37,173 nt of DNA. Origin: Thermoanaerobaculum aquaticum (GTDB lineage: Bacteria > Acidobacteriota > UBA4820). The position numbers and the translations under genes are program-made. Location of the stretch: assembly GCA_020722885.1 (NCBI GenBank), contig DYJZ01000008.1, positions 1-37,173 on the forward strand. The letters are read 5' to 3'. Below, in pieces: positions 5,158-30,269 of this stretch. The notes under the pieces were generated by a model. The model saw only the letters and a list, made by a program, of their open reading frames with translations, made no database searches and was not told the origin of the DNA. Numbering within the stretch: the stretch's first letter is position 1; every line of letters starts with the position of its first letter.

Positions 5158-6174
5158 TTAGTTCTTTGGAACTTCAATAGGTGCTACCGCAGTAATTTCA
5201 ACTCTTCTATTCTTTGATCTTCCTTCTTTTGTGTTGTTATCTGCAATAGGATCCGCTTTCCCTTTTCCTTCAACTTTGGCGATTCTGGATTCTGAAATTC
5301 CGTGTTCAATGAAATATTTCTTTACAGCTTCCGCTCTTCTCTGGCTCAAAGTAAGGTTCCATCTGTCGCTGCCAAGTTTGCAGGTATAGCCGGTAATGTT
5401 GATGTCAAGGGCTTTGTATTTGTTTAGTTTTTCAATTGCAGCGTTGAGAGCGGGTTCACCGTCCTTTGGAATTGTCCAGCTGTCAATTTTGAAATTAAGA
5501 ACGCTTTCATCAAGTGTAATTTTAATCATTTCAGGCTTTGGCGGTGGTGGTGGCGGTGGTGGTGGTGGTGGCGGTGGTGGTGGAAGAGGTTTTCTTGCTA
5601 TTAATGAAAGCCCTACCATCAGTTCGTAAGTGAAGAAATTCTTTTCCTTGAAGAAAGATGGAATTGTGGAAGTGCCTCCAGGAACATACCACCAGGAATA
5701 ATCGTTGTAGTAGTTGTCACTAAAGTCGTAACCCACAACACCTTCAACCTTAAAGGTGGTTCTTGGTGACAGAAATTTCTTAATTCCAAATCCTACATGG
5801 GTTAGAAAATCATTTGAAAAAACTTCATCAAATTTGTCTGGTTCCTGTGCTCTACCGCCAATTCCGAATTTGAAATAAGGAACTAAAGAATTTTCCGGCT
5901 TAACATTGTAAATTGCAGAAAACCTTAACCCGCAGAGGTCAGAGTCAATATGGCGCAGATTGGTGTCGGTGTAAAGAAACTGCGCTTCTCCAGCCCATTT
6001 TTCTGTGAAATTGTAAGCAAATGAGAAAGAATAGTTTGCACCTCTTTTCAATTCCCTGCCGGGGTAGGACATCCCGACCATCGGGCTGAATTCCCAATCG
6101 CCATCCTGAACCTGGGCTAAAATCGGAAGTGCTGTAGCGATGAGCAGAACCAAAACCCATAAACTTCTCTTCAT
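5158..6174 (-). CDS. OmpA-family outer membrane protein with polyproline hinge
   Basis: 338 residues from the ATG at 6174, which has AGGAGG at good spacing; an in-frame ATG 30 bases upstream lacks one. A signal peptide (about 1-20, ending ILAQ) is followed by an eight-strand-type beta-barrel domain (about 25-200), a hinge of 15 consecutive prolines and an OmpA C-terminal peptidoglycan-binding domain (about 215-330) with NLTLSQRRAEAVKKY and GRSKNRRVEI. In the ligand loop the usual GxTD aspartate is a cysteine (Cys265 in GYTCKLGS), while the partner arginine is kept. The protein probably tethers the outer membrane to the wall. It has its own promoter and ends at the shared terminator. Confidence 0.9.
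   Translation of the reverse strand: MKRSLWVLVLLIATALPILAQVQDGDWEFSPMVGMSYPGRELKRGANYSFSFAYNFTEKWAGEAQFLYTDTNLRHIDSDLCGLRFSAIYNVKPENSLVPYFKFGIGGRAQEPDKFDEVFSNDFLTHVGFGIKKFLSPRTTFKVEGVVGYDFSDNYYNDYSWWYVPGGTSTIPSFFKEKNFFTYELMVGLSLIARKPLPPPPPPPPPPPPPPPKPEMIKITLDESVLNFKIDSWTIPKDGEPALNAAIEKLNKYKALDINITGYTCKLGSDRWNLTLSQRRAEAVKKYFIEHGISESRIAKVEGKGKADPIADNNTKEGRSKNRRVEITAVAPIEVPKN
5539..5583. repeat. GGN microsatellite encoding 15 prolines
   Basis: Fifteen consecutive TGG/CGG triplets on the plus strand read as CCA/CCG proline codons in the OmpA gene. The codons are mostly CCA with CCG interspersed. The run is a slippage-prone simple repeat, but unit changes would keep the frame and only lengthen or shorten the hinge. 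Translation through it would need EF-P. Confidence 0.9.
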
Positions 6175-6209
6175 TAAATCCTCCTTTCTTTCAAAAACAT
6201 CCATCTTTC

Positions 6210-8919: not shown

Positions 8920-8978
8920 ATTGTTTTTACCATAAAATTGAAAGGCAAGCCTTTTATCCAAACTTACTCCTTTCGTAG

Positions 8979-9055
8979 TGGTGGGCCCTCCAGGATTCGA
9001 ACCTGGGACCTGCCGGTTATGAGCCGGCAGCTCTAACCAGCTGAGCTAAGGGCCC
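8979..9055 (-). tRNA. tRNA with CAU anticodon, probably tRNA-Ile2
   Basis: A complete 77-base cloverleaf with encoded CCA. The acceptor stem is GGGCCCT paired to AGGGCCC, discriminator A. The D arm is GCTC/GAGC, the anticodon stem GCCGG/CCGGC with loop CTCATAA (anticodon at 9019-9021), and the T stem CCAGG/CCTGG with TTCGAAT. It is not an initiator: position 1 pairs and the three G-C pairs of the anticodon stem are absent. The GG-CC-rich acceptor and CTCATAACC resemble tRNA-Ile2, whose C34 is changed to lysidine by TilS, more than elongator tRNA-Met. An automatic call would read Met. Confidence 0.93.
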
Positions 9056-9125
9056 AGCCAAACTAATATAATTTAACACATTTTTCAAAAAAAAACAATC
9101 TCTTGAAGAAGTCCACAACATTTAA

Positions 9126-9250
9126 TACCAATTTGACATCTGTCGTTTATGAATTTGTAGGTAAGGATACCTATCCTTGCCCACGCCGGGATATGTATCC
9201 CGGCCTACGGGCGGAATTGATTTGTCTAATGTTGATGTCAAATTGGTGTA
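9126..9250. repeat. Small palindromic element (MITE-like) with nested hairpins
   Basis: A 14-base perfect inverted repeat (ACCAATTTGACATC at 9127-9140 and its complement at 9234-9247) encloses two further perfect hairpins: 9163-9178 (AAGGATA/TATCCTT, loop of two) and 9185-9204 (GCCGGGATA/TATCCCGGC, loop of two). GTAGG and CCTAC flank the pair. There is no coding capacity. The structure is what a non-autonomous mobile element or folded intergenic RNA would show. Confidence 0.65.
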
Positions 9251-9260
9251 ATACACAATA

Positions 9261-9477
9261 AGGAAGATTGCTTCGCCTGAGGAGGCTTTGAAGGTGTGCT
9301 CGCAATGACTGCGTTGTTTTTTAAGAGGGAGATTGCTTCACGGGAGAATGCCTCGAAGTAGAATTCGCAATGACAGCGTTTTTCTATGAGGAAAATTGCT
9401 TCGGAGGAGGATGCTACGAAGAAGCACTCGCGATGACTGCATTGTTTGTTAAAAAGAGGAAGATTACAATTTCTTCA
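9261..9477 (+). repeat. Tandem array of repeat B (three units plus a fragment)
   Basis: Units start near 9261, 9326 and 9389, with a fragment at about 9457-9477, giving a period of about 64 bases. Each unit has the form AGGAAGATTGCTTCG, a variable middle, GAAG, then CTCGCAATGAC. The ends (ATTGC/GCAAT, CTTCG/CGAAG) are inverted, so every unit can fold as a stem-loop. Single copies recur at 17691-17742, 26821-26869, 26882-26926 and 30394-30445. Confidence 0.8.
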
Positions 9478-9505
9478 AACTGTCGTTTTTTATATTTTTA
9501 TGCAT

Positions 9506-9560
9506 CACATCTGTCCAAAATAAATTTTGACATAACCATCTAAGAAGTCAAGGGGAAAAG
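9506..9560 (+). repeat. Dispersed repeat C, copy 1
   Basis: The segment starting CACATCTGTCCAAAATAAAT recurs at 17591-17645; the first 30 bases are identical and the following AAGAAGTCAAG block is also shared. In both places it sits beside repeat B. The remainder of this gene-free stretch (9561-9789) shows nothing I can identify. Confidence 0.75.
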
Positions 9561-9789
9561 AAAAAGGTGAGCCATTTTCGGATAAAATAATTTTTGCCTA
9601 CTAAAAAGAGAACTATAAAACACTGAAATGAGGCTCAACAATTGCTGGATAAGGGTACTCTTTGAGGAAAAACCAAAATTTAAATAACTATCTCATATGC
9701 CTTGTTTTCTAACCCCTTTAATACCCGTCCAAAACCCTCAATTTTTCAGGATTCCATTTCGGCTTTCAAATTATCCTCGACAGCAGTGA

Positions 9790-10089
9790 TTACACAGTAT
9801 CTTTTAGTATCTTGAGGTACTTTTCGTAAGGCAGAGCTTCCCAGCTTTCTGCACTTAGAGCACCAGAAGCTCTTGAAATCAGAGAAACCTTATGGGCAGT
9901 CTCTATGTCTTTTGCCTCATAAATGTCCATAAAATCATATGGGCCAAGAATTGAATAATGAGCAATCCATTTAACATCGGGACATGATTTTTTTACCTTT
10001 TTAATCCATTCCTTGCCCTTTTTTGCTCTCTCTTTGGGATTTTGAAGAACCTCCGGTGAAAGTCTGGTCATCAAGATAAAAGTTGCCAT
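9790..10089 (-). CDS. GYD-domain protein
   Basis: 99 residues from the ATG at 10089, chosen because AAGGAGG precedes it; the longer reading to 10143 only overlaps the citF end. The sequence beginning MATFILMTRLSPEVLQNP, then CPDVKWIAHYSILGPYDFMDI and the C-terminal ALPYEKYLKIL are typical of the GYD family (a ferredoxin-like small domain, named for the conserved Gly-Tyr-Asp, here GPYDF). Its biochemical role is unknown; the fold suggests ligand binding or an accessory role. It is the last gene of the hydro-lyase/lyase operon and overlaps no other frame after start correction. Confidence 0.85.
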   Translation of the reverse strand: MATFILMTRLSPEVLQNPKERAKKGKEWIKKVKKSCPDVKWIAHYSILGPYDFMDIYEAKDIETAHKVSLISRASGALSAESWEALPYEKYLKILKDTV

Positions 10090-10102
10090 TTCTGCCTCCT
10101 TT

Positions 10103-26967: not shown

Positions 26968-26995
26968 TTGACAAACAATTTTTATTTAGTATATT
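26968..26995 (+). promoter_or_regulatory. Near-consensus sigma-70 promoter
   Basis: A perfect -35 box TTGACA (26968-26973) and a -10 box TATATT (26990-26995) with a 16-base spacer, one of the strongest matches in the window. Transcription would start near 27002, about 13 bases before the 50-codon ORF and about 240 bases before the secreted protein genes. Confidence 0.7.
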
Positions 26996-27014: not shown

Positions 27015-27167
27015 ATGATAAATCTCTTAGCTGCTCTAAAAGAAGTTAAAGATTCTTTGTTAAAAGCTTCATCTCTTATTTTACCCCCCCCTCCCCCACG
27101 AAAAGAACAAATTATACATAGTTTCAAAGCAATGGAATTTAGAAACTTTCCAAAAACCTCCTCCTGA
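27015..27167 (+). CDS. Possible 50-residue leader ORF with a five-proline run
   Basis: A short reading frame with a ribosome-site-like GTGGGGA eight bases before its ATG and a near-consensus promoter directly upstream. The product begins MINLLAALKEVKDSLLKASS; residues 24-28 are five prolines encoded by a C8-T-C5 tract (27084-27097), then RKEQIIHSFKAMEF follows. I know no homologue. The C-tract is slippage-prone and a proline run would stall ribosomes lacking EF-P. It lies 72 bases before the start of the broken secreted protein. It could be a small protein, a leader peptide or chance; codon use alone cannot decide. Confidence 0.4.
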   Translation: MINLLAALKEVKDSLLKASSLILPPPPPRKEQIIHSFKAMEFRNFPKTSS

Positions 27168-27239
27168 AAACTGACAGGAAAATCTGAAGGTCAGGCGATG
27201 GTGATCCATAAAAAACTTCGCTTTTCAAAGGAGGAGAAA

Positions 27240-28088
27240 ATGATAAAAAGAGGAAAAATGTTGTCGATTTTGTTGTTATGTGCTTTTGTGCAACTGCTTG
27301 TTCTGGCTCAAGTGGAGATGCCATGGTTCTGGGATTTTGACCATCCTTCAACTTTTACAGACATTGACCTTGTTAACTGTCCGGCAAATCATTCCGATGA
27401 GTTTCCCCTTGATTTTTTTGAATTTGAAACTGCAGCTGTCGATGTTCGTGACGGCTCTATTGTTCCTTGTGATATGAGCTTCAGAATCTACTTTTCCACC
27501 GAAGGAGTGACCGATCCTAATCTACTGACGATGTGGCAGGGTGGTCATATGCACCAAAGGCAGACCGATAAGGCGCATAGAAGGGTTACATTGGGGGAGA
27601 TTGAAACGGTGCCAGCTTCGGATGATACGAACCCCGCTACGACAGAGGTTCAAGTGAGAATCGAAAACCATTTCGAAAAAATAAAAGTATTGAGGCCTGA
27701 AGCAGCGGGAGTCATAAAAATACGTGCCGACAGCAGAACCCGACCCAATCTGAACTATTGCGGCATAGAAAATGAATACTGGCATAAGGCTCCTGACAAT
27801 TCCAATCCTAATTGCTGGAAACATGCATATGGCGAATGGGCAGAATTTTTTCTGATTTTGGGTTTGCAGGAATTGCCGGAAAGCGGAGACAATGTCTATT
27901 ATAGAAGAGACAGAATAGCGGAAGGAGGAAGCAATCCATATCATCCGAACCCTCTTGCCTATTATGGAACACAGGGAATGATTAACGCTGTAATGCGACT
28001 TGCAAAGAATTACTATGAGGATGAAAAAACAAAAGAGCAAAAATTAAAAATAAAAGATATGAGTTTAAAGTGGGGGGGGGATATTTGA
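27240..28088 (+). CDS. Secreted protein, N-terminal part of a frame-disrupted putative metallopeptidase
   Basis: 282 residues from the ATG at 27240, which has AGGAGGAG upstream; the ATG at 27198 lacks one. A signal peptide (about 1-24, ending LVLAQ) is followed by a region with PWFWDFDHPSTF, a YFSTEG segment, and HPNPLAYYGTQGMINAVMRLA close to the end. The frame runs into nine consecutive G (28072-28080) and stops eight bases later. Coding continues without a break in the next frame to 28305, so the intact product would be about 354 residues. I do not recognise the N-terminal 250 residues. It is followed by a second secreted protein gene. Confidence 0.75.
   Translation: MIKRGKMLSILLLCAFVQLLVLAQVEMPWFWDFDHPSTFTDIDLVNCPANHSDEFPLDFFEFETAAVDVRDGSIVPCDMSFRIYFSTEGVTDPNLLTMWQGGHMHQRQTDKAHRRVTLGEIETVPASDDTNPATTEVQVRIENHFEKIKVLRPEAAGVIKIRADSRTRPNLNYCGIENEYWHKAPDNSNPNCWKHAYGEWAEFFLILGLQELPESGDNVYYRRDRIAEGGSNPYHPNPLAYYGTQGMINAVMRLAKNYYEDEKTKEQKLKIKDMSLKWGGDI
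28072..28080 (+). repeat. G9 homopolymer at the frameshift point
   Basis: Nine G in a row inside the codons for KWGG. With eight or eleven G the upstream frame joins the downstream frame (28081-28305) exactly; with nine it stops at 28086-28088. Such tracts change length by polymerase slippage and are also a common place for sequencing errors. Confidence 0.9.
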
Positions 28089-28305
28089 TATTAATGGGGA
28101 TTGGAGTTGTTCCCATGTTCGTCACAGAACGGGAAGAAGCGTTGACATAAGTAGAACTACTGTTAAAATTGAAAATGGAGTGGAGGTTCTTAAACAAATT
28201 GAAATAAATAAATTAAGAGAATTGGCAACTAAAAACAATCTTCGCCTAAATGAGAACGAATGGAAAAAACTGGGACTAATTCACTTAGACTATATAGGGA
28301 GGTAA
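28081..28305 (+). pseudogene. C-terminal part of the frame-disrupted protein, with HxxxHRxGxxxD-like motif
   Basis: 74 open codons in the +1 frame relative to the upstream part, beginning IFDINGDW and containing CSHVRHRTGRSVDIS, then a charged helical tail ending HLDYIGR. The His-x3-His and following Gly/Asp pattern recalls the zinc sites of M15 and M74 peptidases such as MepA (HxxGxxxD), so the catalytic residues would lie entirely behind the G9 tract. The stop at 28303-28305 lies two bases before the next ATG, and the ribosome site of that gene is inside these codons, which supports true coding. It has no start codon of its own. Confidence 0.6.
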
Positions 28306-28307
28306 AA

Positions 28308-30269
28308 ATGAGAAAACTATCCTTAATATATTTTGTTGTCTTTGTGTTTTCATTGACTTTGTTTTCGCAACAGTCGCCTGACCAGATCCCAAAACCAAAG
28401 TTTGACAATATCGTTGTAACCGCTTCTGTGGAAGAAACAACTTTAGAAGGTAGTTCGGCTTTTAAATATTCCTATATGGTATTTAATCCCCCGGATAATG
28501 AAGTTCCAATTGGGATGGGCGGCATTGAAATTTTGCTACACGGAGGGTATGTATTTGGTCTTTTCGAGCCAGAGGGGTGGAGCAGTGGTACCGGAGAAAA
28601 CCGCACACATTCTGCAGATGTTCCTCTTGACACAACGGCTTCTTTTGATTGCGATGAGTACGGTGATGGCACTTTTGGTGCAAATCGCCCTTTGCCTGGC
28701 ACGACAAGCGGCCCGATGGGGTTTTACTCATGGGACAGGCCACCTATGATAACCGAAGTGTGGGTTACGCCTGACATTGGAAGTTACCTCGTTGCATTTT
28801 ATGATTGGTATGAAAATCAGCCGGACAATCCTGAGACCTTTTTATACCCTCCAAAAGAAGGGGATGTCATCGCTTCTTTTGTAAAGAAAATTCCGACGCT
28901 GTGCCCTCTTGGAGACAATATTTCGGTCGGGGAGTTCCAGCACTGGGACAGGCTGATTTCGGACACGGAAAAAGCGGGGCAACTTGGCTGGATAATGGAT
29001 CAGGCTCTGCTTGCCTCCATATTGCAAAACCTGAAAGAAGGCAGAATTGCGCTGCAAAACAGCAATGAAATTCTGGCGCATCAAAAGCTGGATGCGGTAA
29101 TTGCCTTGATCTCCTCTGCGTCATCCTCTCAAGTAAAAAGGGAAGGGAAAGACCTTGTTTACTTAAATGCAAAGGTTTTAAATCAATATACGCCCTGGCC
29201 GTATGAACCTGTCTTAACGGTTACGCCATCATCAACAGAGCTTTCCCTCGGAGAGGAATTAGTGTTGACGGCAAAATTCACAGATGTTGCGTTAAATCAA
29301 CCAATTCAAGGCGCGAAAATAGTTTTTGAGGTGACTGAAGGCCCGCATTATGGAATGGAATGCGAAGATATAACCGATAACAACGGAACCGTAATTTTTA
29401 ATTACATTGGCTACTATGAAGGGGAAGATACGATAGTATGCTATGTTTCAAGAGAGGAATTGCCCTCTGTTTATGTAAAAGTGCTATGGGAGGGAGGTCC
29501 AGATTTAATGCTTTCATTTTTTGTCCCCTCATCAATAACAGTTGAGCCGGGAGGAACCTTCTATATCTCGGACAAAGTTGTTAACACAGGAACATTACCT
29601 GCACCCGCGACCTATGTCCACTATTACATTGGAACAAAAGAGGATTTGAGCGATGCAAAATATTTCGGTGAAAGACAAATTGCAGCGCTTAAACCTAAAG
29701 AAAGCGACATGGTAACAATGAGGCCATATATTCTACCTCCCGAACTGCCGCCTCAGAAGTATTATTTTTCTTGTTGCGTCGATCCAGAAGATTTGATTGC
29801 CGAGCTCAATGAGGATAACAACTGTTCCGATACAAATATCTGGGCAACGGCTGGAATAGTTCCCGTTCAAAAAATCCCCAACAACCCCCCTGATTGTTCG
29901 AAAGCCACTGCAAGCCCGAATAATCTCTGGCCGCCGAATCACAAACTAAAAGATATTTCGATAGAGGGAGTAACCGAGCCCGACGGGGATGCGGTGACAG
30001 TGACCGTTACATCAATCACCCAGGATGAGCCGGTGAATGGTTTAGGAGAGGGGGACACATCACCCGACGGGTTCGGAGTGGGGAGTGCCAATCCGCAGGT
30101 GAGGGCAGAGAGATGCGGGAGTGGAAACGGAAGGGTTTACAGGATAAACTTCAAGGATGTTGATGCAAAAGGCGGAGAATGCACTAATTTTGTGACGGTC
30201 GGTGTTCCACACGATAAGAAAGATACCCCGATTGATGATGGTCAGAACTACGATTCAACATTGCCGTGA
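28308..30269 (+). CDS. Large secreted multidomain protein with CARDB and Ig-like parts
   Basis: 653 residues from the ATG at 28308, which has GGGAGG upstream; the ORF is open from 28260 but without a site. A signal peptide (about 1-20, ending LFSQ) is followed by an unknown domain (about 25-200), a helical region (about 205-290), a Big_1/Ig-like domain (about 305-400: VTPSSTELSLGEELVLTAKF, NGTVIFNYIG), a CARDB-like domain (about 403-520: GGTFYISDKVVNTGTLPAPA, AELNEDNNCSDTN) and a C-terminal unit (about 535-650) with SPNNLWPPNHKLKDI, TSITQDEPVNGLGEGD and VPHDKK. That last unit is found at the ends of many exported proteins. Base composition rises in the final 350 bases, which suggests that the C-terminal unit was acquired. 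The gene probably forms an operon with the broken gene before it. Confidence 0.8.
   Translation: MRKLSLIYFVVFVFSLTLFSQQSPDQIPKPKFDNIVVTASVEETTLEGSSAFKYSYMVFNPPDNEVPIGMGGIEILLHGGYVFGLFEPEGWSSGTGENRTHSADVPLDTTASFDCDEYGDGTFGANRPLPGTTSGPMGFYSWDRPPMITEVWVTPDIGSYLVAFYDWYENQPDNPETFLYPPKEGDVIASFVKKIPTLCPLGDNISVGEFQHWDRLISDTEKAGQLGWIMDQALLASILQNLKEGRIALQNSNEILAHQKLDAVIALISSASSSQVKREGKDLVYLNAKVLNQYTPWPYEPVLTVTPSSTELSLGEELVLTAKFTDVALNQPIQGAKIVFEVTEGPHYGMECEDITDNNGTVIFNYIGYYEGEDTIVCYVSREELPSVYVKVLWEGGPDLMLSFFVPSSITVEPGGTFYISDKVVNTGTLPAPATYVHYYIGTKEDLSDAKYFGERQIAALKPKESDMVTMRPYILPPELPPQKYYFSCCVDPEDLIAELNEDNNCSDTNIWATAGIVPVQKIPNNPPDCSKATASPNNLWPPNHKLKDISIEGVTEPDGDAVTVTVTSITQDEPVNGLGEGDTSPDGFGVGSANPQVRAERCGSGNGRVYRINFKDVDAKGGECTNFVTVGVPHDKKDTPIDDGQNYDSTLP

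Follow-up and report, generated by a model that had tools for sequence, protein, structure and literature searches.

The window, by which we mean the whole 37,173-nucleotide stretch of DNA analysed, contains a two-gene operon consisting of a gene for a secreted, M74-like (LAS-type) putative metallopeptidase and a gene for an exported protein with a CARDB domain, and the first of these genes is out of frame. The frame was lost at a tract of nine G by slippage, biological or technical. We judge it marginally probable that the operon is under stochastic on/off control via homopolymer slippage, the window representing the off state, since homopolymers in the predicted promoter spacers of related operons match the architecture of known poly-G phase variation.

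Positions 27240–28305 (+) form one gene, split at the G9 tract (Table 1). The first frame is preceded by a Shine-Dalgarno sequence (AAAGGAGG, 27227–27234) and begins with a hydrophobic, signal-like N-terminus, in agreement with the first-pass annotation of a secreted protein; it covers some 280 residues of the M74-like protein. The second frame is open from 28069 onward to a TAA stop at 28303–28305, and a change of frame is possible only within 28069–28088, a 20-base interval that contains the nine-base tract. The next ATG lies two bases past this stop, which had been described as adjoining the following gene. The frames join only if the tract length modulo 3 equals 2, and the joined protein has 354 residues. 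The earlier arithmetic, by which either eight or eleven G would fuse the frames, is right, but the two lengths are not equivalent: the longer one would add a third glycine, and exactly two are found in all ten aligned homologues.

Table 1. Features of the split gene, its operon and its upstream region in the window
Feature	Position (strand)	Remarks
Best promoter-like site	26968..26995 (+)	TTGACA-16-TATATT; spacer without homopolymer; 244 bases before the ATG; consensus match only
CCCCCCCCTCCCCC tract	27084..27097 (-)	inside a 144-base intergenic repeat, 27018-27161 (-); in the operon's predicted leader
First frame	27240..28088 (+)	ATG 27240 to TGA 28086-28088; 282 aa; stop just past the tract
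G9 tract	28072..28080 (+)	site of frame loss; codes the family's invariant Gly-Gly
Second frame	28081..28305 (+)	rest of the catalytic region; 74 residues and stop
HVRHRTGRSVD, putative zinc motif HxxHxxGxxxD	28114..28146 (+)	both His, Gly and Asp invariant in ten homologues
His of IHLD, putative last zinc ligand	28282..28284 (+)	invariant in ten homologues
Partner gene	28308..30269 (+)	653-aa exported protein; signal-like start; CARDB domain; directly downstream in relatives too

Only four G/C runs of at least nine bases occur in the 1.90-Mb genome (107 contigs, 91% complete), and we estimate the odds of an accidental break within 20 bases of such a run at roughly 6e-5. Because a chance coincidence with so rare a run is very unlikely, we attribute the loss of frame to slippage at the tract. 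The tract is also the sole lesion seen, and in an alignment with ten homologues all family-invariant residues are kept on both sides of it.

That the two frames belong to a single protein, as first proposed, is borne out by related genomes. A search in the same genus and family returned homologues of the joined protein with one uninterrupted frame spanning both halves, and their alignment crosses the junction without a gap. Invariant residues comprise D, S, L and GG before or at the tract; past it come W, H, H, G and D, and finally a C-terminal H. In a Pfam search, the fused 354-residue sequence matched Peptidase_M74 (PF03411) over residues 240–343, across the junction (E = 1.5e-4), whereas neither half alone gave a match. 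The scores (21.9 bits for the whole joined protein, 24.4 for the C-terminal part) are below the gathering threshold of 25, and the C-terminal HxHxRF ligand motif of M74, carried as H.H.RF by the M74 proteins of the phylum, is replaced in this family by IHL[DE] or a similar sequence in which a single His is invariant; we therefore describe the protein as M74-like and do not file it as an M74 member. The zinc motif, originally likened to that of M15/M74, is thereby narrowed to an M74-like ligand pattern. Profile–profile comparison of the family with the phylum's M74 proteins gave a probability of 90% over 62 columns, covering the DxS-GG-HxxHxxGxxxD region. AlphaFold models were poor (pLDDT 51 and 43), a sequence search of the PDB returned chance matches only, and the viral contigs searched held no relatives of the protein.

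The named relatives are MAGs assigned to Acidobacteriota, Thermoanaerobaculaceae and Ca. Aminicenantes UBA4820. The peptidase and CARDB genes are adjacent in G002 and G003 and in two copies in G001; less similar pairs occur in G100 and, twice, in G060. The operon's genomic place is not conserved: in G003 the dehydrogenase that neighbours it in the window has other genes at its flanks, so that a syntenic copy there was rejected. A second homologue in G060 (L044:1172–2016) is split between two frames at ~1411–1498, with no long tract at that point, and is either another broken copy or an assembly error. Elsewhere in the window, an OmpA-like outer-membrane protein (5158–6204, −) has its two domains separated by a run of ~16 prolines. 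A 1.1-kb stretch without a long frame (8949–10102) holds a tRNA (8982–9055, −), an A9 run and a 103-residue open stretch beyond the stop side of the neighbouring gene.

Upstream regions were readable for seven operon copies; the copy in G002, cut by a contig end, was left out of the promoter count. A homopolymer lies between TTGACA and the −10 box in four of the seven, whereas among other TTGACA promoter-like sites the count is 2 of 89 (Fisher p = 1.5e-4; 0.002 if L044, the weakest, is not counted as a hit), where promoters were predicted by consensus match, spacer runs of at least eight bases were counted, and the comparison sites come from stretches mostly picked for poly-G and hence enriched in it. 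This contrast is post hoc, the pattern having been seen first, and covers seven copies only. The four promoters read TTGACA-AATCGT-G10-TATAAT (L011, G001:C84; tract ~75–83 bases 5′ of the ATG), TTGACA-AATTG-T15-ACAAT (L008, G003; the −10 box is TACAAT, its first T being the last T of T15), TTGACA-GGGCGGT-G14-TATCTT (L037, G060:C33) and TTGACA-AAGGACC-G8-TAGGCT (L044, G060:C47; a weak −10 box matching at 3/6 positions). The T15 run is the only A/T run above nine bases in about 296 kb examined. With lengths of 15, 16, 19 and 21 bases, the relatives' spacers fall around the 17-base optimum and would differ in promoter strength. TTGACA promoters free of such a tract were found for L009, L036 and the window, whose operon is the fifth copy with a homopolymer but has it, as G9, in the coding frame.

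The intergenic repeat in the window's predicted leader occurs twice in the genome, the copies being 77% identical (second copy G000:C72:19491–19624, L047). It carries a G8 tract followed by TAAAAT, and in the C72 copy the tract sits between TTGGCA and TAAAAT; the repeat is possibly a promoter-like element that is mobile or has been duplicated. In relatives, poly-G was also observed 1–8 bases upstream of a TTGACA box (L067:2726–2738, G13; L075:2150–2158, G9; L087:1995–2003, G9), the G13 of L067 preceding a TetR-regulator-like gene and then efflux genes.

Across these operons, tracts of a type prone to length change, placed where their length would set either reading frame or promoter spacing, are present as G9 in frame in the window and as G10, T15, G14 and G8 in the relatives' spacers. 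If they act as a switch, slippage of the spacer tract in the relatives would change the distance between the −35 and −10 boxes, whereas in the window's species, with the tract in the coding frame, only some lengths would yield the full enzyme. Tract length would vary within the population and would control expression. The phase-variable switch of the first-pass annotation gains only indirect backing from the relatives' spacer homopolymers, although the in-frame G9 from which it was proposed recurs in none of them. A broader proposal, which we advance tentatively and with less than even confidence, is that uncultured Acidobacteriota conserve the peptidase–CARDB operon as a locus dedicated to phase variation: a spacer homopolymer recurs in two families despite a change of base (G10, G14, G8, T15), and the window's species would have shifted the switch to the coding frame, at the catalytic domain.

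Several observations weigh against a switch. The coding tract is confined to the window, whereas promoter tracts recur, and at the corresponding position the relatives lack a G run, at least one codon of their Gly-Gly being GGA or GGC; the window's own promoter lacks a tract; and runs of G8–G10 are tolerated unbroken in other genes. For the last point, every other G/C run of at least eight bases in the genome was read in context, in the stretches around the tracts. All 15 other coding tracts of 8–10 bases (two of nine, one of ten) lie in uninterrupted frames, and several of these belong to housekeeping genes, for example dprA and thiC (gene names assigned from sequence); a run of this kind can thus be neutral. 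With no other coding tract out of frame, the idea of a genome-wide collection of broken genes open to switching was rejected. Unusual abundance of poly-G was rejected as well: the four runs of at least nine bases compare with a Markov expectation of 4–12, and the relatives hold as many or more.

Without the promoters, the coding evidence would speak for one isolated event, either a mutation or an error. The former, a one-off slippage event that either left a young pseudogene in this lineage or was assembled from a minority mutant, would give the tract no regulatory role. It accords with the absence of the coding tract from all relatives, with a G-run count at chance level and with the rapid divergence of the peptidase (25–28% identity to relatives versus 80% for the neighbouring dehydrogenase), and G060 has a further frame-split copy, broken away from any long tract. 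A decaying gene sits less easily with the lack of a second lesion and the retention of all invariant residues, and copies of the operon repeatedly carry homopolymers at their promoters; we consider a one-off mutation rather unlikely. It is the spacer homopolymers upstream of the homologues that shift the balance towards a switch.

That the true gene is intact and the tract was misread in sequencing or assembly is an unlikely explanation too. Homopolymers are the usual sites of error, and assemblies of this group do falter at poly-G: in G002 two contig ends sharing ~150 bases (end of L070, C99; start of L071, C51) disagree by a single base where a G10/G11 run ends, and G003:C144 ends in G14. 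The 15 in-frame coding tracts, which include all three others of at least nine bases, indicate, however, that the present assembly is not generally wrong at such runs.

The remaining alternative is that the present sequence yields some full-length enzyme, through programmed +1 frameshifting, as raised in the first-pass annotation, or through transcriptional slippage at the G run. It is highly improbable: a nine-base run in a 20-base frame overlap is a possible slippery site, but no homologue changes frame here or needs to, and in a non-systematic reading we noticed no stimulatory element.

Mismatch repair bears on how readily such tracts would slip. We did not find mutS1 in this assembly, which is 91% complete, whereas it is present in G001, G002 and G003; its position differs among these relatives, and neither of the junctions corresponding to its two flanks in G003 holds it here (L061, L064, L065). 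The 9% of the genome that is missing could contain the gene; mutL is intact. Absence of mutS1, if real, would raise slippage, and loss of mutS increases phase variation in meningococci (PMC3447861).

Should the switch be real, environmental anaerobes would keep stochastic control over an exported protein and a secreted enzyme that probably acts on the cell wall, which would suggest phage, predation or competition as the driver, not immune evasion. Our open-access literature search returned no paper linking phase variation to Aminicenantes, and for Acidobacteria nothing relevant.

The closest counterpart of the enzyme is MepA, the M74 reference, a zinc-dependent D,D-endopeptidase of peptidoglycan (PMC6403190). 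The window protein shares with PF03411, the family of the penicillin-insensitive murein endopeptidase MepA, the motif order DxS-GG-HxxHxxGxxxD and the helix that precedes it, and differs in an extra N-terminal region of ~200 residues, the CARDB partner and the single C-terminal His; from the motif, we infer that it cuts peptidoglycan. Loss of a cell-wall peptidase through a change in homopolymer length near the 3′ part of its gene has a parallel in Campylobacter pgp1, a peptidoglycan carboxypeptidase gene with a variable A8 tract for which both variation and phenotype were demonstrated (PMC5133587), whereas the window case, read from sequence alone, concerns another enzyme class, another base and an unrelated host lineage. 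The coding tract itself most resembles that of lgtA of Neisseria meningitidis, an intragenic poly-G that is on at G8 and off at G9 (PMC3447861): in both, an in-frame G run lies in a gene for a surface or exported function and G9 truncates the product. Unlike lgtA, the window tract belongs to an uncultured Acidobacteriota-type host, is not conserved in relatives and is known from one assembly. For the relatives' operon copies, with a homopolymer between the −35 and −10 boxes, the model is the promoter-spacer poly-G phase variation of porA of N. meningitidis and TP0126 of Treponema pallidum, with an optimum of 17 bases (PMC7864442); the differences are that the tract lies in the relatives' predicted promoters, not in the window's own, and that one copy uses T instead of G.
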